From assembly GCF_016616235.1 (NCBI RefSeq), contig NZ_CP067100.1:2415001-2479000 (forward strand): a stretch of 64,000 bases of DNA, given 5' to 3'. The notes under the pieces were generated by a model, which was not told the origin of the DNA, ran no database searches, and was given only the letters and a program-made list of their open reading frames with translations. The translations under genes and the position numbers were made by a program. Below are positions 4,707-20,944 of this stretch, piece by piece; the first letter of the stretch is position 1, and every line of letters begins with the position of its first letter. Source of the DNA: Bradyrhizobium diazoefficiens. Lineage in GTDB: Bacteria > Pseudomonadota > Alphaproteobacteria > Rhizobiales > Xanthobacteraceae.

Positions 4707-4988
4707 GTGAAGCATCCGGTGACGCCGGACGGCCACTCCTTCGTCGTCCGCGGCAGGCTCTGGCGAATGGCAAATCCCGTCTCGACGAGGTCACGCGAGA
4801 TCATCTCGTCAGCCGTCTAATGGCGGCCCGGCGGGTCGGTGCGCGCGCCAGGAAGGCGGCCGACCGCGAGGCCGCAGTAACGGTGCATAGGACCGTGGAC
4901 GAGGCTAAGCAGGCGCTCGGCGAGCGCGGTCCGGTATGGCGGGACGACGGCTCGCCGGCTCTCGATTGCTCTGCAAAGCAGGAGCGAT
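4707..4988 (+). pseudogene. Frameshifted conserved small gene between ku and the NUDIX gene
   Basis: From GTG 4707 the frame reads VKHPVTPDGHSFVVRGRLWR and continues to ANP. It then loses register by one base near 4775 and resumes in another frame as LDEVTRDHLVSRLMAARR, continuing to ALGERGPVW near 4935. These two halves match a small protein widespread in rhizobia (recalled pattern: FVVRGRLWR then NP, LM-ARR, ALGERGPVWW). The tail after RGPVW also departs from the family and runs into the next gene. The original end is uncertain. It may be a real decay event or a sequencing error. Confidence 0.55.
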
Positions 4989-5492
4989 ATGGCTGCCGTG
5001 AAAAAGATCTCCAAGAGATCGACCTTCAGCGCGGGCATTCTCGCATACCGCAAGGGCGCTCGTGGGCTCGAGGTTCTGCTCGTTCATCCCGGCGGTCCGT
5101 TCTGGCGTAAGAAGGATGATGGCGCCTGGTCCATTCCTAAGGGCGAAATCGATGCTAATGATGCTCCGGAGCACGTCGCTCGACGCGAATTTGCCGAAGA
5201 ACTCGGCCCGAGCGCTTCGATTGGTCCACTCCAGGCGCTGGGGGAAGTCCGACAGCGAGGAGGGAAGCGCGTCATCGCATTCGCCGCCGAGGGCCACTTT
5301 GATCCGGCAGCGCTGACCAGTAATACCTTCGATATCGAATGGCCGCCTCGAAGCGGTCGAAGGAAGACCTTTCCCGAAGTCGACCGGGCGGAATGGTTTG
5401 ATATCGAGCTCGCGCGGACCAAGATGCTGTCCGCTCAAGCTGAGCTTCTCGATCGACTTTTGGCGATTGCGGTTGAGAGCGCCGAGAAATGA
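4989..5492 (+). CDS. NUDIX hydrolase of the COG4119 type
   Basis: The 167-residue protein starts with a short beta segment (SAGILAYR) and carries a NUDIX box at about residues 52-74 (G-x5-D-x7-REFAEELG). The usual Glu after the first glycine spacer is Asp here, while the catalytic REXXEE core is intact. Family members hydrolyse nucleoside diphosphates linked to another moiety. Its stop overlaps the start of the phosphodiesterase gene by 4 bases, so the two are probably co-translated. Located in the cytoplasm; substrate unknown. Confidence 0.88.
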   Translation: MAAVKKISKRSTFSAGILAYRKGARGLEVLLVHPGGPFWRKKDDGAWSIPKGEIDANDAPEHVARREFAEELGPSASIGPLQALGEVRQRGGKRVIAFAAEGHFDPAALTSNTFDIEWPPRSGRRKTFPEVDRAEWFDIELARTKMLSAQAELLDRLLAIAVESAEK

Positions 5493-5953
5493 TGTTCAGG
5501 ATTGGAATCATTTCCGACACGCACGGCCTGTTGAGGCCCGAGGCGGAACGAGGCCTGACGGGCGTCGATCACATCATCCATGCCGGCGACATCGGGCGCC
5601 CCGAGATCGTCGATGCGCTTCGCCGGATTGCGCCCGTCACGGCCATTCGTGGGAACGTGGATGGTGGCGAGTGGGCTCGCGACTACCCCGACACGAACCT
5701 TGTGCGCCTGGCAGGTAGGTCGATTTACGTTCTGCACGACTTGAAAACGCTGAAAGCCGACCGCGGCGCCGGCATCGACGTCATCGTCTCCGGGCATTCC
5801 CACGTGCCGAAGATCGACACGGTCGGTGGCGTTCTCTATCTGAATCCCGGCAGCGCGGGACCCCGGCGTTTCAAGCTGCCGATCACGTTTGCGACGCTCG
5901 AACTCACGCCTGATGGCATGCGTCCGGAAATCCACTACCTCGGAGGCGACTGA
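5489..5953 (+). CDS. YfcE/MJ0936-type metallophosphoesterase
   Basis: The 154-residue protein has the metal-binding motifs of the calcineurin-like fold in order: SDTHG at about residues 9-13, AGDIG near 32, RGNVD near 54, and GHSH near 105-108. Length matches the single-domain YfcE class, phosphodiesterases of unknown physiological substrate that use Mn or similar metals. It overlaps the NUDIX gene by 4 bases. The pair could act in turn on a nucleotide derivative; that is inference. Confidence 0.9.
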   Translation: MMFRIGIISDTHGLLRPEAERGLTGVDHIIHAGDIGRPEIVDALRRIAPVTAIRGNVDGGEWARDYPDTNLVRLAGRSIYVLHDLKTLKADRGAGIDVIVSGHSHVPKIDTVGGVLYLNPGSAGPRRFKLPITFATLELTPDGMRPEIHYLGGD

Positions 5954-6015
5954 GTGCCCACCGCGGAGGGCCGGTTAATCCCTTCCGTTTGCCGGGTTAC
6001 GCTCGGAGGGGAGCG

Positions 6016-6963
6016 CTATTTGCGCGGACGTTCTCGCTCGCGCACGACCTCCCTCGCCCGCTTGTCAGACCTGAGCCCAAGGTAGACGGCCTGGCGCAGT
6101 TCGCCCTTACTCGTCCACTCCGCGAATTTGACCTCGGCAACCAACGAGGGCTTGACCCAGGTCGTGGCGCCCTCGTCCTTCACTTTGGAAGGGAAGGGTG
6201 ATTTAGGAGTGGTCAGCTTCACGAGCTTGGCATGGAGATCTCCCAGGACCTTGTGACTGAAGCCGGTGCCGACATGCCCGATGTAGCGCCATGCGTCGTA
6301 TTCCCGCACGGCGAGGACCAGGGCGCCGAAGAACGGCCTGGAGCGCTTGGGCGCTGTGAAGCCCGCGATCACCACTTCCTGTCGCTTTGCCGTCTTGATC
6401 TTCAGCCAATCCGCCGTTCGGCTTCCGGAGGTATACGCGCTGTCGGCGCGCTTCGCCATGATGCCCTCCAGACCCTTCCGCTCGGCCTCGGCGAAGAATT
6501 TCGTGCCGTTTGCTTTGCGGTGGCGGCTGAAGGCGATCAACCGGTTGCTCGGCAGGATCGCTTTCAGCCGCTCCTTGCGCTCGAGAAGAGGCTGCTTGCG
6601 CAAATCAACTGCGTTCTGAAACATGAGATCGAAAGCGCAATACAGGAGCTTCGCTTCATGGCGCAGCGCGTTCTGAAGCAGCTGGAAATGCGAGACGCCG
6701 TCCTTTCCGATCGCGACGAGCTCACCGTCGATCACGGCGTCGCCCTTCACGCCCTCCAGCGCTTTGGCGACCTCGATATAGCTGCGGCTGATGATCTTGC
6801 CGTTGCGGCTGTAGAGCGAAACCTTGCCCCGGCGGATTTCCGCGATCATCCGGAAGCCGTCGTACTTATCCTCGAAAACCCAACCGGGATCGTCGAACGG
6901 CGCGTCGGTGAGCGTAGCAAGCATTGGCTGTAGGCGTTTGGGCAGGGTCGACGTTCGGCTCAT
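6016..6963 (-). CDS. ATP-dependent DNA ligase, stand-alone LigD-type ligase domain
   Basis: The 315-residue protein carries the adenylation motif EDKYDGFR with Lys33 as the nucleotidyl acceptor, then ELVAIG (motif III), FDLMF, EGIMAKR (motif IV) and WLKIK (motif V), followed by an OB-fold region with GTGF. It lacks the polymerase and phosphoesterase domains of full LigD, so it is a separate ligase of the LigC/LigD ligase-domain class. With the neighbouring Ku it could seal broken ends. Ends at a basic tail; start MSRTSTLPKRLQPMLA is typical. Confidence 0.92.
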   Translation of the reverse strand: MSRTSTLPKRLQPMLATLTDAPFDDPGWVFEDKYDGFRMIAEIRRGKVSLYSRNGKIISRSYIEVAKALEGVKGDAVIDGELVAIGKDGVSHFQLLQNALRHEAKLLYCAFDLMFQNAVDLRKQPLLERKERLKAILPSNRLIAFSRHRKANGTKFFAEAERKGLEGIMAKRADSAYTSGSRTADWLKIKTAKRQEVVIAGFTAPKRSRPFFGALVLAVREYDAWRYIGHVGTGFSHKVLGDLHAKLVKLTTPKSPFPSKVKDEGATTWVKPSLVAEVKFAEWTSKGELRQAVYLGLRSDKRAREVVRERERPRK

Positions 6964-7701: not shown

Positions 7702-8195
7702 TGAAAGGTTCTCCCACGCTGAGACGAATCGTTTAGTCCCGCAGACGTTCCCCATCGCTAACACACGGCTGGGATTCCGGATCGTGGGATCTCGTGGTTT
7801 TTCGAAGGCCGAATTTTCCAGCCGGCCAGGTGGTAGGGTGGGCGAGAACGAACCGAAGAAACCGTTTTCCGATACTTCAGACGTGCGAGCTCAAGTGGTG
7901 CTCCCTTATCCGTTTTGCGCGTGCGGCTGTCGCCGCACTGGGCTCTGGTGAACCGAGCCACGCAGCGTCTCGGCCTTGCGGCTTCGATCCCTCGCACTAG
8001 AGCAGATCACCCCCTTGCGGGGGCAGAAACGAAAAACCGGACCTTTATGCAGCAGCCACCTGCACAAAGGTCCGGCCTTATCCTAGCGTGCCGCGATACC
8101 GAACGGCTGCAAAGGACGCTTCATATCCTTTGGGAGGTCTCGCTTTTCATCCGGGTTGCGACCCGGAGGCGGCAATAAATCAGTAGCCGATACGA
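7702..8195. other. Non-coding stretch with two strong hairpins
   Basis: No convincing gene. A perfect 5-bp CCCCC/GGGGG hairpin lies at 8010-8023 and a large hairpin at 8037-8075. A minus-strand open frame (7758-7997) has no family resemblance and poor composition. Bases 7960-7998 look faintly like a tRNA 3' end (a TTCGATCCC box) but the arms do not fold. Confidence 0.4.
8037..8075 (-). terminator. Rho-independent terminator for minus-strand transcription
   Basis: CCGGACCTTT (8037-8046) pairs perfectly with AAAGGTCCGG (8066-8075), and TGCAG/CTGCA pairs inside. Read on the minus strand the stem is followed by TTTTTCG. It lies about 120 bases beyond the stop of the lysine-rich miniprotein gene and probably ends that transcript. 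Confidence 0.7.
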
Positions 8196-8282: not shown

Positions 8283-8634
8283 GTCGTCCTCTGTAAAGAA
8301 TTGACTCAGTGAACATGCCCACGCCGTGCATCGACATGCGCACCGGTGAGACGCTATCACAAAAGCAAAACTGATACCAACGAGACGTGATCCGCATTGA
8401 GTCGCTCGCCGGAGGCACTCGCCCTCGGGCCCGCCGTCATTGCATGCCGGCGTCGCTATCACTGCCCTTCGGATCGGGTGCCTTCTTAACCGGTCTCGCG
8501 ACTGCACTCGGTCCCGGGTCCCGCCGCTACGCGTCGGCGCTATGCTGACCCTCCTGCGGGTGCCTCTTTTGATTCTCTCACTCTTCTCTTGTTGTGAGCT
8601 CTGCCGGGCTACCCGGCATTCTCATGGTTGAGAT
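8283..8634. other. Non-coding junction between repair island and conjugation module
   Basis: No gene is supported. The stretch has several GC hairpins, the best being TGCCGGG/CCCGGCA at 8602-8618. The conserved leader sequence of the next gene begins at 8635. If the element has a border near here, I cannot identify an attachment site from the sequence alone. Confidence 0.35.
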
Positions 8635-8890
8635 CTAAGGGGCGCTGCCCCTCGCGCGCGCCAGGGTAAAGCGTCGGCTTACGCCGGCGCCGTCCCGAGC
8701 GGTCTCCCCGGTCTTCCGCGCGTCCTCTGATTCCTCACTCTTCCGAAAGACCGGCATGCGCTTGTGCAGACCCGCTCACTGAGCGGCCCTGTCGGGCGGG
8801 TGATCCCCCTCCGCCCGGTTCGCCCTGGCACTTGTTACCCCCGGTCTCGCCGACGGGCAGGGGCGCAGGCGCGGAGTGCGCCCTGCACCC
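8635..8890 (+). ncRNA. Conserved structured leader A, upstream of the ParB-like gene
   Basis: About 255 bases that align with leader B (12049-12295). Conserved blocks lie at 8635-8658, 8697-8721, 8790-8814 and 8821-8861. Between them are hairpins whose paired bases differ from leader B yet still pair: GGGGC/GCCCC near 8639-8651, GCGTCGGC/GCCGGCGC near 8671-8690, and CCGCTC/GAGCGG near 8772-8786. No in-frame coding is shared: the open frames over the two leaders differ relative to the downstream start. I read it as a cis-acting RNA or shared regulatory leader. Class unknown. Confidence 0.5.
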
Positions 8891-8913
8891 ATGAAGGCAA
8901 AGGGAGATTGATC

Positions 8914-10923
8914 ATGTCGGCCAAGCACATTGAAGCCATTCCCGAGAGCGGGACGGAGATTTTCATTCCGCTGAACAAGCTCAAGAAGTCGCCGAAGAAC
9001 GCGCGCAAGACGCCGCACAGCGAGGCGGCGATCGAGGCGTATGCAGCGAGCATCGCCGCCAAGGGCATCTTGCAAAATCTGGTGATCGAACCGGAGTTGG
9101 ACGGAGAAGGAGCGACCACGGGGTTCTATTTCGTGACCATCGGTGAGGGCAGACGCCTTGCCCAGCTTCTGCGGGCGAAGCGGAAGGAGATCAAGAAGAC
9201 CGAGCCGATCCGCTGCATCATCGACACCGCGAACGATCCGCACGAAATCAGCCTGGACGAGAACGTCACCCGGGAAAACATGCATCCTGCCGACCAGTTC
9301 GAGGCGTTCAAGAAGCTGGCGGAAGAACGCGGTTTCGGTGCAGAGGAAATTGCCGCCCGTTTCGGCGTGACGCCGCATGTCGTGCGGCAGCGCCTACGGC
9401 TCGGCGCGGTCTCCCCGAAACTGATGCAGGTCTATCGCGATGGCGATCTGACGCTAGAACAGCTGATGGCCTTTGCCATCACCGATGATCATGCCCGGCA
9501 GGAAGGCGTCTATGAGCGCCTGTCCTATAACCGGGATGCCAGCACCATCCGCCGCATGCTCACCGAAACCCACGTGGCCGCCACCGACCGCCGCGCGCGC
9601 TTTGTCGGGATCGAGGCCTACACCGAAGCAGGCGGTACGGTCCTTCGCGATCTTTTCACCGAGGATCGCGGCGGCTATCTGGAGGATGTGGCGCTGCTCG
9701 ATCTTTTGGTAACCGCAAAGCTCGGCCGTGAGGCCGATGCGGTGCGGTCAGCCGAGGGTTGGAAATGGACGGAAGCCCATCTTGATTTTCCGCACGCGCA
9801 CGGCATGCGGCGGACCTATCCGCATCCGGTCGAGCTTTCCGCGGAAGATCAGGCCGCTCTTACTGCGGCACAGACGGATTTCGATCGGCTGACCGAACAG
9901 CATCAGGCGGCTGAGGAACTTGCTGACGACGTAGATGCACGGTTCGGCGAGCTTGAGGCCGAAATCGAGCGGCTGGAAGCGAAGCGGCAGGCCTATGATC
10001 CTGACGACATTGCACGCGGAGGCGCTTTCGTGATCCTCAATCACGACGGCAGCATTCGGATCGAGCGCGGGTTCATCCGCCCGGCAGACGAGAAACCCCA
10101 AGCCCAAACGGAGGAAGGGAGCGACCCGCAGGGGGCGAATGAGGGCGCGGACACAGATGGCCATGCGGCGCAAGGTGGTCATGAAGAAGCCGTTGCGGAG
10201 GACGAGGACGACGACAGACCCCTATCTGACGTTCTCGTTCGCGACCTCACCGCACATCGCACCTTGGGGCTGAGGCTCAATTTGAGCGAACAGCCCGAAA
10301 CCGCAATCGTGGCCGTCACGCATGCGCTCGCGGCCCAAATCTTCTATCTCGGCGCGGATGCGCATGTCGTTGGTATCCAGCCAGTCAAGACCGATTTGGC
10401 TGGGCATGCGGACGGTATCGAGGATACACCCGCCGGCAAGGCCTGGGCGGATCGTCACGCCAATTGGGCAAGGCAGATGCCGCGGGACGTGGCTGGTCTT
10501 TGGGCTTTCGTGGCCGAACTCGACCACGACAGCCGCATGGCCTTGTTTGCGCATTGCACCGCATTGACCGTCAATGCGGTGAAACTGCCGTGGGAGCGGC
10601 GGCCGCGGGCGCTGTCAACGGCCGACCGGCTGGCGGAAGCCGTGTCTCTTGACATGACCGGCTATTGGCGGCCGACGGTGCGTAGCTATCTGGGTCGCGT
10701 CACCAAGGCGCGTATTCTGGAGGCGGTTTGCGAGGGCGTGAGCGCCGAGGCGGCCGAGCGTATGGTGGACATGAAGAAGGTCGACATGGCGGAAGCCGCC
10801 GAACAATTGCTAGCGGCGACCGACTGGCTGCCTTCGCTGCTGAGAACAGCGAAGTCGCAGGATCGCGCCGATGCTTCAACTGACGTGCAGGACGGCGACG
10901 CGTATTCGGAGGCCGCGGAATGA
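8914..10923 (+). CDS. ParB-like partition/nuclease-domain protein of the ICE
   Basis: The protein has 669 residues from ATG 8914 (AGGGAGA just upstream). The N-terminal ParB/Srx-fold domain covers about residues 15-110, with GEGRRLAQLL and the segment LDENVTRENMHPADQFEAF typical of ParB box II and its partner helix. A helix-turn-helix follows near 130-150 (IAARFGVTPHVVRQRLRLG). The middle has a coiled coil (310-350), and an acidic linker near 410-440 leads to a helical C-terminal domain. Such proteins open the transfer module of many rhizobial ICEs and plasmids. Their task is not settled; DNA binding is expected. Confidence 0.88.
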   Translation: MSAKHIEAIPESGTEIFIPLNKLKKSPKNARKTPHSEAAIEAYAASIAAKGILQNLVIEPELDGEGATTGFYFVTIGEGRRLAQLLRAKRKEIKKTEPIRCIIDTANDPHEISLDENVTRENMHPADQFEAFKKLAEERGFGAEEIAARFGVTPHVVRQRLRLGAVSPKLMQVYRDGDLTLEQLMAFAITDDHARQEGVYERLSYNRDASTIRRMLTETHVAATDRRARFVGIEAYTEAGGTVLRDLFTEDRGGYLEDVALLDLLVTAKLGREADAVRSAEGWKWTEAHLDFPHAHGMRRTYPHPVELSAEDQAALTAAQTDFDRLTEQHQAAEELADDVDARFGELEAEIERLEAKRQAYDPDDIARGGAFVILNHDGSIRIERGFIRPADEKPQAQTEEGSDPQGANEGADTDGHAAQGGHEEAVAEDEDDDRPLSDVLVRDLTAHRTLGLRLNLSEQPETAIVAVTHALAAQIFYLGADAHVVGIQPVKTDLAGHADGIEDTPAGKAWADRHANWARQMPRDVAGLWAFVAELDHDSRMALFAHCTALTVNAVKLPWERRPRALSTADRLAEAVSLDMTGYWRPTVRSYLGRVTKARILEAVCEGVSAEAAERMVDMKKVDMAEAAEQLLAATDWLPSLLRTAKSQDRADASTDVQDGDAYSEAAE

Positions 10924-10930
10924 GGACTGA

Positions 10931-10963
10931 GCCGGGGCCGCGTAGGCGCCCCCGGCGGGTTTT
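10931..10963 (+). terminator. Probable terminator after the ParB-like gene
   Basis: GCCGGGG (10931-10937) pairs with CCCCGGC (10950-10956), followed by GGGTTTTAAATTTT. It begins 8 bases after the stop codon of the ParB-like gene. Position and T-tract fit intrinsic termination. Confidence 0.55.
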
Positions 10964-11453
10964 AAATTTTCGGCCGCGCGCCGGACCCGCGCGCGGCCGC
11001 TTCGATCAATGCAAAGCGGCGACCGCCCACACAAGCCCTCGACTCGGATATGGGCCACGATCTGTCCGATCCACGCCGTTTGCCGCACCAGTGAGGACGG
11101 CTGTGTCGCACTCGCCTCATCAGGACGATGCGATTCAGGGCGGACGCTTTGATGGTGTGATGACTGCGAGCATCGAGATCGCGCGCAGGCAGATAACTCC
11201 AGCGGCACATTTGGTCTCCTACGCGAAAATGCGCTTGGTTTCGCTTGTGTTTGCCAAGATGCGTCTTTTTTGCCGTTGATGCGCGGGTGCCAGCAGATGT
11301 TCGATCCGCCCAGGCATGTCCTTGTGCCGCGTCGGTGTCGGCCGCCATGGTTGTCTCCGTCAGTTCGTTCATGGCGCGTCCAACGCAACCTCGAATGGGC
11401 TGATCAGGCCCGAGGGCCGGCAAGAGCCTTGATCGCCTTCCCGCAACGGCTGC

Positions 11454-11515
11454 GCCTGCTTTTTTCCCCTGCCGCGAAGTGGCGGCATTCCTCGCGGGAA
11501 GACAAAAAAGCAGGC
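11454..11515. repeat. Long inverted repeat with nested hairpin
   Basis: GCCTGCTTTTTT (11454-11465) is perfectly complementary to AAAAAAGCAGGC (11504-11515). Inside, TGCCGC pairs with GCGGCA around 11470-11487. It lies about 120 bases upstream of the DUF736 gene. It may be a terminator, an operator or part of a structured leader. Confidence 0.5.
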
Positions 11516-11632
11516 TATCGCCGTCCTCCGCTGTCGCTGCGGGCCTGACGGCTGCGGGCCGATCGCTCCCCGGGCCAAGGATCGCCATCGAGGCTGCGAT
11601 GGGCGCGGCCCGAGCAACAAACGGAGACCATC

Positions 11633-11944
11633 ATGGCTACCATCGGCACCTTTACCGCTTCGGACAACGGCTACATCGGTTCGATCAAGACGCTGACCCT
11701 GAACGTCAAGGCAAGGTTCGCGGCATCCGAGAAGGACAACGACAAGGCGCCCGACTACCGCATCTTCGCCGGTACGACCGAGCTCGGTGCCGCCTGGAAG
11801 AAGACCGCCCGCGAGACCGATCGCGAATACCTCTCGGTCAAGCTCGACGATCCGACTTTCCCGGCCCCGATCTACGCCTCGCTGGTGAAGGTCGAAGGCG
11901 ACGAGGGCTTCGCCTTGATCTGGTCCCGCCGCAACGGCGACTGA
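11633..11944 (+). CDS. DUF736 family protein
   Basis: The 103-residue protein begins [20 protein letters not shown] and ends [14 protein letters not shown], the full DUF736 domain. These small proteins are a constant part of rhizobial ICE and plasmid transfer modules, next to DUF932 and ParB-like genes; some reports call them conjugal-transfer accessory proteins, but the function is not established. GGAGA lies 5 bases before the ATG. A strong terminator follows at 11961. Confidence 0.93.
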
Positions 11945-11960
11945 TCCCACGGGATCGTCA

Positions 11961-11988
11961 GCCCCGCCTCCTCGGAGGCGGGGCTTTT
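11961..11988 (+). terminator. Rho-independent terminator after DUF736
   Basis: A perfect 10-bp stem, GCCCCGCCTC / GAGGCGGGGC, with a CTCG tetraloop (11961-11984) is followed by TTTTC. It starts 16 bases after the stop of the DUF736 gene. Confidence 0.85.
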
Positions 11989-12048
11989 CTGCATTTTATT
12001 TCGCCGCTTCGGGAGGAAGAAGAAGCGCATTTTTCTTTGAGGAGATTG

Positions 12049-12295
12049 CTAAGGGCTCCGCCCTCGCGCAGGCAAGGGTGAAGCACGGCTCGCCGTGCCG
12101 GCCGGAGCGGTATCCCCGGTCTTCCGCGCAAAAGATCTTCACGACGACGATGTCGTCGGGCGCGTGCAGACGCGCGCTTCGCGCGCCCTTGTCAGGCGGG
12201 TGATCCCCCTCCGCTCCGGCCGCCCTTGCCCTTGCTACCCCAGGTCTCGCCGACGGGCAGGGTTGCAGCGCAGCGCTGCGCTTCAACCTCAGCCC
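12049..12295 (+). ncRNA. Conserved structured leader B, upstream of the DUF932 gene
   Basis: The partner of leader A (8635-8890). Hairpins: GGGC/GCCC near 12053-12063; CACGGC/GCCGTG near 12083-12098; GACGAC/GTCGTC near 12142-12158; GCGCGC/GCGCGC near 12171-12185; GCGCA/TGCGC near 12267-12281. A long-range perfect pairing joins GGCCGGAGCGG (12100-12110) to CCGCTCCGGCC (12211-12221) and would close a multibranch structure. The block 12105-12129 differs from leader A at one base of 25. It ends 15 bases before the DUF932 start. Confidence 0.5.
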
Positions 12296-12309
12296 ATAGG
12301 AGAACGACC

Positions 12310-13506
12310 ATGAACATGATGACATTGTCCCAGAGCGAACAGCCTGTTTCGGGAGGTTTCCGCGTGGATGTATCGCGCGGCCAGCGGATCGGCCGCGTGT
12401 CGTCCGAGTGGTTTGCGCGACCGGATGACGAGCGGTATCTGAACCTGCCGGACCTTTATGAAGCAGTGCGAGGACGGGCCGAGCGCGCGCAGGCGCGGAC
12501 GGTGGAGAGCCGCGCGATCCGGGTGGAGGCGAGCCGGGACAATGCCGAGCGGCTGACCCTGACGGTGCCGGGACGTGACGAGCCGGTGGCGCCGACCCAT
12601 TGGAGTTTTGGCCAGTTGTGTACGCTGGTCAGTGCGCCGACATCTTATCTGCGGCAGCTTCCCGCAGCCCTATCCGCTATCAATCTGCAACACGGTTTTT
12701 TGTCACATCGCGCCGAGCTCGTGAAAACCTTGGAGGCCAACAACGGACGCGTTGAGCTTCGTGCCGTGACCGGGCCGGACTATGGCCGCATCTGGGATCA
12801 TGAGTTGGTCGCAGCGGTCATGAAGATCGCGGGCAATGGCACGGGTGACACGCGGTGGAAGGTCCCGGGCGTGATGGACTGGGCCACCATGACCCATAAT
12901 CCGTTTGTGGACGTGACCAAGGACACGACCACGCTCTATGGCAGTGACCGGGATGTGTTCCTGTTTCTGGTCGACGACACCAACCCGATCGAAGCCGGGC
13001 GCCTGCCGGATGGATCACCGGATTTGTATTTCCGGGGGTTCTACTGCTGGAACAGTGAAGTCGGCAGCAAGACGCTTGGGATCGCGAGCTTCTATCTCCG
13101 CGCCGTCTGCATGAACCGTAATCTTTGGGGCGTCGAGAATTTCGAGAAGATCACGATTCGGCATTCCAAATTTGCCGCTCAACGGTTCGCCCATGAAGCT
13201 GCGCCAGCGCTAACGAGCTTTGCCAACTCGTCACCTGCGCTATTCGTGGCCGGGATCAAGGCAGCGCGGGAGCGGATCGTTGCCCGCACGGACGACGACC
13301 GGGAGACGTTCCTCCGCAAAGGCGGGTTTTCCAAATCCAAGACCTCGAAGATCATCGAGACCGTCTTGGGCGAGGAAAACCGCAAGCCGGAAAGCATCTT
13401 TGATTTCGTGCAAGGCATTACTGCGTTTGCTCGCGGCAAGGCTCATCAGGACACACGACTTGAACTGGAAGGCAAAGCGAAACGATTGATGGAGCGCGCA
13501 ATCTGA
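12310..13506 (+). CDS. DUF932 domain protein
   Basis: The 398-residue protein starts at ATG 12310, which follows AGGAGAACGACC. The DUF932 domain covers about residues 50-300, with the FYCWNSEVGSKTLGI and LRAVCMNRNLWGVE segments typical of the family (phage- and plasmid-borne proteins, sometimes labelled anti-restriction or YfjQ-like). Function is unproven. It is a standard member of this ICE type. Separate transcription is likely: it has its own leader (B) behind a terminator. Confidence 0.9.
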   Translation: MNMMTLSQSEQPVSGGFRVDVSRGQRIGRVSSEWFARPDDERYLNLPDLYEAVRGRAERAQARTVESRAIRVEASRDNAERLTLTVPGRDEPVAPTHWSFGQLCTLVSAPTSYLRQLPAALSAINLQHGFLSHRAELVKTLEANNGRVELRAVTGPDYGRIWDHELVAAVMKIAGNGTGDTRWKVPGVMDWATMTHNPFVDVTKDTTTLYGSDRDVFLFLVDDTNPIEAGRLPDGSPDLYFRGFYCWNSEVGSKTLGIASFYLRAVCMNRNLWGVENFEKITIRHSKFAAQRFAHEAAPALTSFANSSPALFVAGIKAARERIVARTDDDRETFLRKGGFSKSKTSKIIETVLGEENRKPESIFDFVQGITAFARGKAHQDTRLELEGKAKRLMERAI

Positions 13507-15450: not shown

Positions 15451-15732
15451 ATGCCCGATCCGATGGCCGGTCTTCCCCCGCGCTTCCTGCGTACACCTGA
15501 GGCCGCGCGCTATCTTGGCCTGTCCGGTCGCACGCTGGAAAAGCACCGCACGTACGGTACTGGACCGACCTATCGGAAGATTGGCGGACGTGTCGTCTAC
15601 GCCCTTGATGACCTGAAGGCGTGGGCCGACCGGGGCGCCAAGACGTCGACCTCCGATCCGGGGAAGGGGACCGTTCTGCCGGCCAAAAAGCATCCGGCGC
15701 TGCGGCCGTATGCAGGCCAAGAGCGCCGCTGA
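15451..15732 (+). CDS. MerR/AlpA-type excisionase-like protein (RdfS-like)
   Basis: The 93-residue protein from ATG 15451 has one winged-helix motif of the HTH_17 class: FLRTPEAARYLGLSGRTLEK, then HRTYGTGPTYRKIGGRVVYA and LDDLKAW. The DNA-recognition helix lies at residues 20-32. This is the fold of recombination directionality factors such as RdfS, which steer the integrase toward excision. It directly follows the FseA-like activator, as expected if activation drives excision. No integrase is in the window. It overlaps no gene; the initiator gene starts 22 bases downstream. Confidence 0.75.
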   Translation: MPDPMAGLPPRFLRTPEAARYLGLSGRTLEKHRTYGTGPTYRKIGGRVVYALDDLKAWADRGAKTSTSDPGKGTVLPAKKHPALRPYAGQERR

Positions 15733-15754
15733 TTGCCGCGTGAGAGCAACGATC

Positions 15755-16636
15755 ATGCGGCGTAAACACCATTCGGAGCGCGAGCAGCTTGAGCTCTTTC
15801 GGGCATTGCCCGGTGATCTTGCCGCCCGAGACGCGCAGGATTTGATGGCTTATCCGTTCTTCTCGCTCGCAAAGACCAGGCGGATCGTGCCGATCGATTT
15901 TCGTGCCGGTCCGATCGCAATTCGTGTCGAAGCCGTGCCGGAACACGGCATGGCGACCATCTGGGATGCAGACGTTCTGATCTGGGCCGCCTCGCAGATC
16001 GTCGAAGCCCGTGACGCCGGCCTGAAGACGTCGCGCCTAATGGCTGCAACGCCTTATGAGATCCTGACGTTTGTCGGGCGCGGGACTAGCGCGCGCGACT
16101 ATGACCGGCTGAAGGCCGGTCTCGACAGACTTCAGTCAACGACCGTGCTGACATCGATCCGCCAGCCGGCAGAACGACGGCGGCACCGTTTCTCCTGGAT
16201 CAACGAGTGGAAGGAGACCGCCGATGCAAACGGTCGTCCATTTGGCCTCGAGCTAATCCTGCCTGATTGGTTCTACGCGGGCATCATCGATGACGCGCTC
16301 GTGCTGACGATCGATCGCGCCTATTTCGATCTGACGGGCGGACTGGAGCGCTGGCTCTACCGGCTCGTGCGCAAGCACGGCGGCCGGCAGGAGGGCGGCT
16401 GGAGTTTTGATCTTGTGCACCTCCATGCCAAGTCCGGCATCCTCTCGCCGCTGAAGCATTTTGCATACGACGTCCGTCAGATCGTCCAGCGCCAGACATT
16501 GCCAGGCTATCAGCTTGTGCTCACGCGCGATCCTGATGGCACCGAGCGGCTGAACTTCGCGCCGACACCCGTTGATCCCTTAACGATACGCCTGCGCCGG
16601 CGCGGTCTCATTCCAAATTCGGAGGACAACCTGTGA
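15755..16636 (+). CDS. repA: Replication initiator protein A (RPA, PF10134 type)
   Basis: The 293-residue protein from ATG 15755 shows the RPA signature throughout: REQLELFRALPGDLAARDAQ, MAYPFFSLAKTRR, GMATIWDADVLIWAASQI, and YDRLKAGLDRLQSTTVLTSI. Two winged-helix domains are expected. The family initiates replication of plasmids such as RK2-like and rhizobial elements, and its presence in ICEs suggests autonomous replication of the excised circle. Three direct repeats immediately downstream could be its iterons. The ParA gene that often follows RPA in related modules is missing. Confidence 0.9.
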   Translation: MRRKHHSEREQLELFRALPGDLAARDAQDLMAYPFFSLAKTRRIVPIDFRAGPIAIRVEAVPEHGMATIWDADVLIWAASQIVEARDAGLKTSRLMAATPYEILTFVGRGTSARDYDRLKAGLDRLQSTTVLTSIRQPAERRRHRFSWINEWKETADANGRPFGLELILPDWFYAGIIDDALVLTIDRAYFDLTGGLERWLYRLVRKHGGRQEGGWSFDLVHLHAKSGILSPLKHFAYDVRQIVQRQTLPGYQLVLTRDPDGTERLNFAPTPVDPLTIRLRRRGLIPNSEDNL

Positions 16637-18795: not shown

Positions 18796-19180
18796 CCACG
18801 TGTGCGGGTTCGCAAGGTGATGGCGTATGGGCGATGCCTTCGGCCCGCGCTCTACTCGTCGCTTCGCTCCTCACCGAGCCACCCTTCGGGTGTCTCGGCC
18901 CTTCGGGTAACGATCGCTATCGCAAGCGCTCGGAAGCAGTGGGGGCTTCGCATGTTGGCTGCCAAGGCGCGGCGGCTCTTTCCGGATTCAGCGACTTTGA
19001 GACCACGACGGCAGGACGGCGAGATAAAAGCGGCTCGCCGGTCGAACCGCAAGCCATTGTCATGGCTTGGGTTCTGGCGTGCCGGTCGGTCGGGGCGCGT
19101 GCCGCGCCTTGCGTTTTGAACAATGTGATCAAAGACATTTTCGGCACTGCAGCTGTTTTAATGGTGTTCGAGGCTCCGCC
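18796..19180. other. Non-coding region before the relaxase gene, likely to hold oriT
   Basis: No gene is well supported; a plus-strand frame at 18802-19119 has atypical composition and no family. A 10-bp interrupted stem CCGAG-C-CACCC / GGGTG-T-CTCGG lies at 18874-18898. Bases 19125-19165 are AT-richer than the surroundings. Relaxase genes usually sit beside their origin of transfer, so this is the best place for oriT, but I see no convincing nic consensus. Confidence 0.4.
18874..18898. repeat. Strong interrupted palindrome upstream of the relaxase gene
   Basis: Ten base pairs with a single opposed C/T mismatch and a TTC loop. Relaxases bind inverted repeats near nic, so it is a candidate recognition arm of oriT. 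Confidence 0.4.
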
Positions 19181-20944
19181 ATGACCGCCGGCGACAGCGA
19201 TCTGCGCATTCGGCCCGGGCGTATCCGCAGCACCCGCGCGCCGAAGCCCAAGAGCTTCATCAACCAGGTGCTGCGTGCCGCGAAGAAAGCAGGACACACC
19301 TCGGGACAGGTTGCCGCGGGCAGGCGCTCGGCGGCCTATGGGCGTTCGACGTTCGGCCGCGGCCGGCTCGCTTTTAGTCGCAGCCGGTTGTTCAGTCCGA
19401 TACGGCGAGTTGTGGTGAAGGCGCGCATCGTGCGCCACAAGGGGCGTTCATTCCGTTCGGCGCCGTTAACCGCGCATCTTTCATACCTGAAGCGCGATGG
19501 GGTGACCCGAAGCGGCGAGCGGGCCGAGATGTTCGATGCTGGCAGTGACGGAGCCGATGGCGCGGCCTTCGCCGAGCGGTGCCAGCACGACCGGCATCAT
19601 TTCAGATTCATCGTCTCGCCCCAGGACGCTGACGACATGACCGACCTCAAGGCGTTCACCCGCGATCTCGCCAGGCAGATGGAGACCGATCTTGCCACGC
19701 GGCTCGATTGGTTGGCCGTCGACCATTGGAATACCGACAATCCGCACGTCCACCTTCTCGTCAGGGGAGTCGATGAGCAAGGGGCGGACCTCGTAATCTC
19801 CCGCGACTACATCAGTCGGGGCCTGCGTTCACGAGCCGAGGAGCTCGTCGCCATCGAACTCGGTCCAAAGCCCGAGCACGAGATCCGCAATTCGCTGGAG
19901 AGGGAAGTCACGGCGGAACGATGGACGCGGCTTGATCGGGAGATCCGGCTGTCGGCCGATGAGACCGGCTATATCGATCTTCGCCCAGAAAATCCCGGCA
20001 GCTCCGATCCCGAGATCCGGCGACTGATGGTTGGCCGCCTCCAGCAGTTGGAGAAGATGGGCCTCGCCACGTCCGCCGCGCCCGGGGAATGGATGGTGGG
20101 GCTCGAGGCCGAGCGTAGCCTGCGCGACCTTGGCATGCGCGGCGACATCATCAAGACCATGCACCGCGCCTTTACCGAGCGTGGGGAGGCGCGCGGCGTG
20201 TCGGACTACGTCATCGAAGGCGGACAGCCGACGTCCCAGATCATCGGACGATTGGTCGATCGTGGATTGCTTGATGAACTGACGGGCGAGACCTATGCCC
20301 TGATCGACGGAACAGACGGACGCGCTCACCACGTCCGCTTCCGAGGAATCGAGGCCTTCGAACATGCACCGCCCGTCGGTGGCATCGTCGAAGTGCGACG
20401 CTTCGGTCAAACCGATGATCCGCGCTCCACCTTGGTGCTCGCAACTCGTTCCGATCTAGATGTTGGTGATCAGGTGACCGCGAAAGGTGCGACCTGGCTC
20501 GACCACCGGCTGGTCGAACGCGATCCGATGCCGCTCGCCATGGGTGGTTTCGGCCGCGAGACCCGCCGTGCCATGGAAGCCCGTGCCGAGCATCTGGTTA
20601 ACCAGGGTCTTGCGCGGCGGCAGGGGCAGCGCATCATCCTGCAGCGCGATCTCCTGGATACCTTGCGCCGGCGCGAGCTGGATGAGGTGGCGGCAAAAGT
20701 CTCGGCCGACACAGGTCTGCCTCATCTGAAGGCCGCCTCCGGGGAGCACGTGACGGGCACGTATCGCCAGCGGCTGACGCTCGCGTCGGGGCGCTTTGCC
20801 ATGATCGACAATGGGCTCGGCTTCCAGCTCGTGCCCTGGTCGCGTGACCTCGAAAAGCGGCTCGGCCAACACGTCATCGGTGTCGTCAAGGACGGCGGTG
20901 GCATCGAGTGGGGCTTTGGTCGCAAGCGCGACCTAGGCCTCTAG
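19181..20944 (+). CDS. Relaxase of the VirD2/RlxS type (DUF3363)
   Basis: The 587-residue protein from ATG 19181 has a basic N terminus, the relaxase motif LDWLAVDHWNTDNPHVHLLV with the metal-binding histidines at 189 and 191, and a long DUF3363 C-terminal region. It nicks oriT, stays covalently bound to the 5' end and is pulled through the channel with the strand. In ICEMlSymR7A the counterpart is RlxS. TraG follows 37 bases downstream. The catalytic Tyr is probably in the first 50-130 residues; Tyr63 and Tyr108 are candidates. Confidence 0.9.
   Translation: MTAGDSDLRIRPGRIRSTRAPKPKSFINQVLRAAKKAGHTSGQVAAGRRSAAYGRSTFGRGRLAFSRSRLFSPIRRVVVKARIVRHKGRSFRSAPLTAHLSYLKRDGVTRSGERAEMFDAGSDGADGAAFAERCQHDRHHFRFIVSPQDADDMTDLKAFTRDLARQMETDLATRLDWLAVDHWNTDNPHVHLLVRGVDEQGADLVISRDYISRGLRSRAEELVAIELGPKPEHEIRNSLEREVTAERWTRLDREIRLSADETGYIDLRPENPGSSDPEIRRLMVGRLQQLEKMGLATSAAPGEWMVGLEAERSLRDLGMRGDIIKTMHRAFTERGEARGVSDYVIEGGQPTSQIIGRLVDRGLLDELTGETYALIDGTDGRAHHVRFRGIEAFEHAPPVGGIVEVRRFGQTDDPRSTLVLATRSDLDVGDQVTAKGATWLDHRLVERDPMPLAMGGFGRETRRAMEARAEHLVNQGLARRQGQRIILQRDLLDTLRRRELDEVAAKVSADTGLPHLKAASGEHVTGTYRQRLTLASGRFAMIDNGLGFQLVPWSRDLEKRLGQHVIGVVKDGGGIEWGFGRKRDLGL

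Follow-up and report, generated by a model that had tools for sequence, protein, structure and literature searches.

The 64,000 nucleotides of Bradyrhizobium diazoefficiens DNA analysed here (contig NZ_CP067100.1, positions 2,415,001 to 2,479,000; hereafter the window) hold two copies of a folded element, each of which precedes a gene of a mobile element: copy A stands before the gene for a ParB-like protein and copy B before that for a DUF932-like protein (Table 1). An earlier note on this DNA had placed two stretches of about 250 bases, at 8635-8890 and 12049-12295, before such genes, and both are found at these positions and can be aligned with each other over about 245 bp. A covariance model, R1, matches copy A at 8654-8899 (92.4 bits) and copy B at 12066-12298 (136 bits), in both cases on the minus strand. 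The sequence common to both copies is beyond chance, because GGCGGGTGATCCCCCTCCGC is present twice in the window with no mismatches, where 0.01 matches are expected even if up to three mismatches are allowed. As the same note had it, one conserved block, GAGCGGTMTCCCCGGTCTTCCGCGC, differs at a single position in 25, and arms that differ between the copies while still pairing are present, namely GGGGC/GCCCC versus GGGC/GCCC, GCGTCGGC/GCCGGCGC versus CACGGC/GCCGTG, and CCGCTC/GAGCGG versus GCGCGC/GCGCGC. The perfect long-range pairing claimed for copy B also exists, with a length of 12 bp and not 11 bp; copy A lacks any perfect long-range arm that reaches 9 bp.

Read on the top strand from left to right, the element begins with a small GGGC-NNN-GCCC hairpin, which is followed by the left arm of the long-range helix (P1/P3), the left arm of helix P4 (CCCGRCCT-like), a variable apical part, the right arm of P4 and a conserved TGATCCCCCTC. 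Thereafter come the P3/P1 right arm, a conserved CTTGCTACCCC-GGTCTCGCCGACGGGCA core with a small hairpin inside and a terminal hairpin whose sequence varies; a Shine-Dalgarno-like stretch and the start codon follow. When the gene strand is folded as RNA, copy B shows unusual stability (z -4.13, 0 of 200 shuffles) and copy A does so only weakly (z -1.68, 8 of 200). Among 1276 steps of 250 bases across the window, copy B has the strongest raw fold energy on either strand; after correction for GC content it takes first place on the bottom strand and third place on the top, with copy A outside the first ten.

Table 1. Coordinates in the window of the two element copies, their parts and neighbouring features
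Feature	Position	Strand	Remarks
Copy A of the folded element, before ParB-like gene	8635..8899	-	structure read on bottom strand; alignment and covariance model R1
Copy B of the folded element, before DUF932-like gene	12049..12298	-	alignment and covariance model R1
Core GGTCTCGCCGACGGGCA of copy A	8843..8859	+	
Core GGTCTCGCCGACGGGCA of copy B	12243..12259	+	
Copy B long-range helix, left arm	12099..12110	.	12 perfect bp
Copy B long-range helix, right arm	12211..12222	.	
Copy B terminal hairpin, between core and Shine-Dalgarno	12260..12288	+	among homologues sequence variable, pairing largely kept
ParB-like protein	8914..10923	+	HTH_ParB PF17762
DUF932-like protein	12310..13506	+	PF06067 only at E 0.011, below cut-off
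DUF736 protein	11633..11944	+	PF05284
Terminator-like hairpins 3' of DUF736 gene, 57 bp before copy B	11970..11992	+	consensus matches
Block U, conserved structured block	7919..8015	.	also in both F-plasmid Frpo repeats
Expected origin of transfer (oriT) region, between transglycosylase gene and rlxS	18796..19180	.	from gene order of ICEMlSymR7A, accessible text of PMC11963761
RlxS-like relaxase	19067..20944	+	DUF3363 PF11843; NF041267 591 bits, cut-off 850

Covariation, spread and downstream genes

Compensatory change in the paired arms, which the earlier note proposed and which two copies alone could not have proved, is demonstrated by the homologues, of which there are many. The covariation alignment comprises 20 bottom-strand sequences out of 31 picked, 11 with long inserts or odd ends having been left out, and the structure that RNAalifold derives from it has 37 pairs with 97.9% of cells paired. 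Changes on both sides of a pair occur in 15 pairs and 54 cells, compared with 7.0 and 12.2 in shuffles, none of 500 shuffles being as high, and pairing falls to 35-56% in slid controls. When arms were swapped among 27 elements thinned from 59, the native pairing score was reached by none of 20,000 permutations and the native right arm was best or tied in 16 of the 27; the terminal hairpin passes the same test (27 of 20,000) with six thinned forms only. By eye, whole arms are exchanged between sub-types, as in CAAGGG/CCCTTG, CGGAG/CTCCG and AACTCT/AGAGTT. The structure is conserved and its pairs covary. That no known RNA class fits, as had been supposed, is borne out by Rfam, which gives no gathering match in the window and, within 8400-12700, a best weak match (E 0.82) that lies outside the copies.

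Searches by BLAST with both copies returned 14 and 7 records, with relatives on plasmids of Rhizobium, Bradyrhizobium, Caulobacter, Defluviicoccus, Nitrosospira, Sphingomonas, Paracoccus and Acuticoccus. A scan of GTDB contigs with a pattern of 24 letters around the core, CCCCN{0,1}GGTCTCGCCGACGGGCARGG, matched at least 118 stretches; the 80 titled ones among the matches listed are mostly alphaproteobacterial, the exceptions being two Pseudomonas and one Solidesulfovibrio, with three titled 'Proteobacteria' only. The 17-mer core is present in 9 of 385 genomes from an even draw of the window's class, with 12 matches against one for the reversed control pattern, and in 20 of 60 genomes of the same genus. 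A locus in B. elkanii (L053) has both genes and their elements in very similar form, and queries with other sub-types found part of the element on plasmids of Sinorhizobium, Agrobacterium, Roseibium, Xanthomonas and Burkholderia (55 and 62 records), the sequence on the Xanthomonas and Burkholderia plasmids being partly related. Among 50,697 phage records none matches copy B, and the core pattern matches a single stretch of viral contigs, on which grounds a phage origin was rejected.

What follows the element was surveyed in 129 de-duplicated copies, the downstream genes being grouped into BLAST clusters, each family named from one representative. An open frame lies behind 125 of these copies, and 114 precede one of six gene families: ParB-like (56), DUF932 (PF06067; 20), DUF932-like of the window type (18), ArdA (PF07275; 9), orphan N6/N4 methylases of the PRK13699 type (7) and ArdC (PF08401 with PF18818; 4). 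Behind the other 15 are singletons (one of them DUF2958), frames that are short or broken, or the end of a contig. Thus one cis element stands before unrelated genes of related function, if ParB-like and DUF932 proteins may be counted as establishment or anti-defence functions by analogy with their counterparts in the leading region of F. Two copies occur in seven of the 118 loci, and in all seven they are on the same strand. The start codon lies 37-101 nt from the core (median 52, n=125), at distances that fall in all three reading frames (56, 40 and 29 of the 125), and there are single-base length changes 5' of the core, so the stretch is not coding and a leader that encodes a conserved peptide, the alternative raised at the outset, is excluded.

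Orientation and the folding strand

According to the accessible text of PMC11963761, the gene order of ICEMlSymR7A, one of the rlxS/trb integrative and conjugative elements (ICEs) of Mesorhizobium, is rdfS-traF-msi107-oriT-rlxS. The window fits it with the order helix-turn-helix (HTH) gene, traF, transglycosylase and rlxS, so that oriT is expected at about 18.8-19.2 kb, downstream of both copies; unlike the window, ICEMlSymR7A has no leader element mentioned in that text. The relaxase gene typically lies in the lagging region (PMC11541004, accessible text), and if this holds here the left side leads, and the bottom strand, from which the genes are read, would be the transferred strand (T-strand). 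Orientation was surveyed in 38 copies from 27 genomes with a core match, the relaxase gene serving as a proxy for the side of oriT. An RlxS gene lies within 15 kb of 13 copies (8 sites), and in all 13 (8 of 8 sites) it is downstream on the same strand. Two Caulobacter plasmids (L008 and L009) carry eight model matches with E below 1e-13, of which six are oriented toward mobC.

In a folded transcript, G-C and A-U pairs are expected to interchange by way of G-U. On the gene strand of the element, mismatches in P4 are 31 A.C versus 2 G.T in 68 type-1 elements and 32 versus 0 in 32 type-2 elements, which amounts to 63 versus 2 without the C.A and T.G cells and 68 versus 19 with all kept. The raw tally for P4 also includes 17 T.G and 5 C.A, of which 16 and 4 come from elements, the two window copies included, that have the right arm NNGGCGGG; in these the arm is broken by an additional hairpin, so that the pairing made by the script is out of register. 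The long-range helix, in 80 elements, has 36 A.C versus 8 G.T, in addition to 14 C.C and 21 C.T. Since an A.C of the gene strand reads as G.T on the opposite one, it is the bottom (template) strand that seems to fold. The bottom-strand alignment has 44 G.T versus 2 A.C (25 versus 2 without one invariant T.G pair), the sign of the difference being positive in 14 elements, negative in one and zero in five; control stems from 30 stretches of the window have, on the top strand, 92 G.T versus 60 A.C. From these mismatch patterns we infer that the bottom strand is the folding strand. In fold energy the bottom strand is the more stable in 87 of 97 elements, compared with 50 of 97, 52 of 95 and 59 of 96 in controls, a comparison to which we give little weight. 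The earlier proposal of an RNA selected for its structure therefore stands in so far as a nucleic-acid structure is under selection; the RNA leader in it is probably wrong, because the gene-strand mismatches are mainly A.C.

This strand test does not separate bottom-strand DNA from bottom-strand RNA, and a non-coding RNA antisense to the leader would also give such a pattern. An RNA of this kind would need a start inside or just before each of several unrelated genes, and a consensus scan of the window found neither a terminator-like site at its far end nor a promoter-like site; we regard it as highly improbable. An operator-like site in duplex or cruciform DNA, bound by a regulator of the mobile element and with the fold secondary, could account for the long conserved core GGTCTCGCCGACGGGCA and for the repetition of one site before several genes of one element, but is quite improbable, since neither arms that change in step over a long distance nor strand-biased mismatches are explained by a duplex.

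Comparison with single-strand promoters of F

The leading region of F carries on one strand genes for a methylase, an antirestriction protein, SSB, a ParB-like protein, PsiB and a DUF932 protein, all of which we take, from the position of oriT, to be directed toward oriT. The ParB-like protein of the window is a full-length homologue of the one in the F leading region (28% identity, E 1e-59); for the DUF932-like protein, BLAST gives no match with the F DUF932 protein (E 0.72), whose Pfam family is carried by the representative of the cluster of 20 among the 129 downstream genes. The F ParB-like and DUF932 genes each lie downstream of one copy of a repeat of about 548 bp (90% alike over 548 columns), and these repeats we take by their position to be the published Frpo2 and Frpo1. 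Their bottom-strand bias for Frpo1 and Frpo2 is -11.5 and -10.1 kcal/mol, where single-base shuffles give -3.4 and -2.0 (standard deviation about 4). Frpo1 and Frpo2 are required for early expression in the recipient of the genes behind them (PMC9849209, accessible text).

In position, gene content and predicted fold the element is similar to Frpo. As with the Frpo and single-strand initiation (ssi) elements of F and ColIb-P9, it precedes leading-region genes in several copies per mobile element and on one strand, it shares the company of ParB-like, DUF932 and methylase genes, its bottom strand is predicted to fold, and block U is present in the same region. A stable fold of the single T-strand, the strand itself being assigned from the relaxase side, is predicted from consensus structure, covariation and mismatches; a place in the leading region with genes toward oriT is indicated by the relaxase-gene proxy; and genes for establishment or anti-defence follow in the 114 of 129 copies given above. 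Unlike Frpo/ssi, which form mainly one long stem, the window element has a branched fold with two small hairpins, is GC-rich, as is its conserved right arm, has no canonical -35/-10 boxes in the linear sequence scanned, matches F in neither sequence nor fold, and occurs for the most part in alphaproteobacterial genomes, also in integrated elements.

The only sequence shared with F Frpo is the separate block U, a structured block of about 75 nt at the left end of both F repeats. It is common to Frpo1 and Frpo2, the window and eight further loci (L034, L040, L041, L043, L056, L089, L093 and L100) in a listing of 12 rows, of which L032 was judged to be chance, and its 19-mer also occurs, with three mismatches each, in L022 and L053. 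In the window and seven of the loci it starts 187-904 bp upstream of the core; in L093 it starts 5.7 kb upstream. An inner stem of block U changes in step (CCGAG/CTCGG, CGGAG/CTCCG, CCGGG/CCCGG), and the block may be a separate single-strand initiation module.

A number of observations weigh against a single-strand promoter. With regard to orientation, the RlxS gene of genome G427 is 27 kb upstream of the copy, 24 of the 38 copies surveyed have no RlxS gene within 100 kb on the contig, and on each Caulobacter plasmid one copy adjoins mobC and points away from it (L008 9924-10100 and L009 17422-17600); behind the L009 copy lies a MerR-family gene, and the L008 copy has no annotated gene on its strand for more than 5 kb. 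With regard to the strand, the copies are related and the A.C and G.T counts are thus not independent; the F Frpo mismatches (6 A.C, 4 G.T) are too few to validate the rule; and a Xanthomonas plasmid with partly related sequence goes the opposite way (3 A.C, 11 G.T). The G+T content of the bottom strand, which is near balance overall (0.505), has the same small excess in paired (0.518, without the invariant pair) and unpaired (0.519) columns; from a bias in mutation as small as this one would expect a ratio of about 1.1 and not 12, by an argument and not a modelled null. The strand difference in fold energy is mostly composition, dinucleotide shuffles giving -3.3 of the -4.16 kcal/mol, with an excess over shuffles at p=0.008 (61 of 97). 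Finally, R1 has no match in the F leading region (L133) at E up to 1, and no -35/-10 boxes can be recognised in the element; the alphaproteobacterial promoter consensus differs from the sigma-70 type, so the absence of the boxes weighs less.

The terminal hairpin also runs counter to the other helices, with 26 G.T versus 11 A.C on the gene strand in 97 elements, and in view of this opposite sign part of the leader may act as RNA. In a structured mRNA 5' leader, a folded transcript would control translation or elongation of the downstream gene, perhaps by binding a protein encoded by the mobile element. The terminal hairpin ends near a Shine-Dalgarno-like AGGA in the copies read by eye, the helices covary and copy B folds well as RNA, as such a leader would have it; A.C exceeds G.U in P1/P3 and P4, the P4 of the would-be RNA holding an A.C mismatch in 28 of 68 type-1 and 32 of 32 type-2 cases, and no Rfam class corresponds, so that we consider this explanation unlikely.

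An ssi site, at which the folded T-strand loads primase or RNA polymerase for priming of the second strand and expression is a by-product or a separate matter, would be suited by the stretch of at least 5 kb without an annotated same-strand gene behind the L008 copy beside mobC and by the position of block U, common with F, apart from the element. Frpo transcripts are said to act both as primers and as mRNA (accessible text of PMC7736820). Priming needs neither a place about 50 nt before anti-defence genes nor repeats before several of them, and an ssi site is, in our judgement, distinctly unlikely.

The single-strand leading-region promoter is the mechanism best supported by structure, spread, neighbours, orientation and the parallel with F, and the element probably represents a Frpo-like family of such promoters in the leading region of mobile DNA; as the -10/-35 boxes are missing and the sequence match failed, it is not to be filed as Frpo. 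Each copy would be a cis element in the leading region of an integrated conjugative element of the rlxS/trb type. During transfer the bottom strand would enter the recipient single-stranded and the element would fold into a long branched hairpin, from which the RNA polymerase of the host, directly or by way of a loading factor, would start transcription toward oriT. The ParB-like and DUF932-like genes (in relatives those for ArdA, ArdC and DNA methylases) would then be expressed before the DNA becomes double-stranded, and second-strand synthesis would remove the fold and switch the genes off. Promoter activity, its timing and a protein that reads the fold are what we infer beyond the observed structure, gene content and co-orientation with nearby RlxS genes.

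Grouped and co-oriented anti-restriction and methylase genes with Frpo-like promoters make up the anti-defence islands of Samuel et al. 2024 (PMC11541004, accessible text), and genes of these two kinds likewise lie behind elements of the window type. The promoters of those islands were found by similarity to five known Frpo/ssi elements and the -35/-10 consensus (islands of Fig. 2), and the words 'Alphaproteobacteria', 'DUF932' and 'ArdC' do not occur in the main text of that paper (PMC11541004). A search of open-licence PMC literature turned up no mention of an alphaproteobacterial single-strand promoter in the accessible text, supplements and subscription papers being outside this scope, which does not prove that none has been described. 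The wider claim, which we place only just on the probable side, is that of an undescribed family of single-stranded DNA promoters in many alphaproteobacterial genera, from which ArdA, ArdC, orphan methylases, DUF932 and ParB-like proteins would be expressed off the incoming strand of ICEs and plasmids, largely independent of the enterobacterial Frpo and read without classical -10/-35 boxes. To our knowledge, experimental proof of single-strand promoters exists only for a few enterobacterial plasmids. If the claim is true, the idea of single-strand promoters extends to integrated symbiosis-type elements and many alphaproteobacterial genera, and the element becomes a simple DNA tag for leading regions and new anti-defence genes. 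Through its covariation one can also ask which of the two strands of a mobile element acts as folded DNA.

Neighbouring features and minor observations

The linear sequence at 8500-12330 contains no sigma-70-like double-strand promoter (0 found, 0.7 expected), and terminator-like consensus matches in the region number 6 where 2.9 are expected. This lack of a double-strand promoter and the terminator-like sites just before copy B lend slight support to a single-strand promoter, and with such hairpins just upstream copy B may start a new transcription unit. No RP4-type nick motif was found near the expected oriT, and an ATG at 19181 appears by eye to be the likelier start of the RlxS-like relaxase. 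A Replication initiator protein A (PF10134) at 15710-16636 lies within the transfer module of what is a chromosomal element.

Several related records hold peculiarities of their own. Locus L011 has at 4979-5070 a truncated element, with core and terminal hairpin only, followed by an apparently broken ParB-like gene that adjoins a Ti-type traA. The mobC-side copies of the two Caulobacter plasmids are both followed by a similar AACCGCGCC-AACCGGCCA stretch, which may belong to oriT. The Xanthomonas plasmid L139 has three very strong hairpin regions (5801-6250, 10801-11250 and 15501-15900) that precede a ParB-like gene, a DUF932 gene and a third one; one of these regions has about 60 bp in common with the methylase-type element, there being three such places in the record. 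Within the window itself, 11351-11600 forms a strong fold biased to the bottom strand (-69.5 versus -62.0 kcal/mol), which holds a CCTGCTTTTTT...AAAAAAGCAGG inverted repeat directly 5' of the DUF736 gene and may be a different single-strand element.

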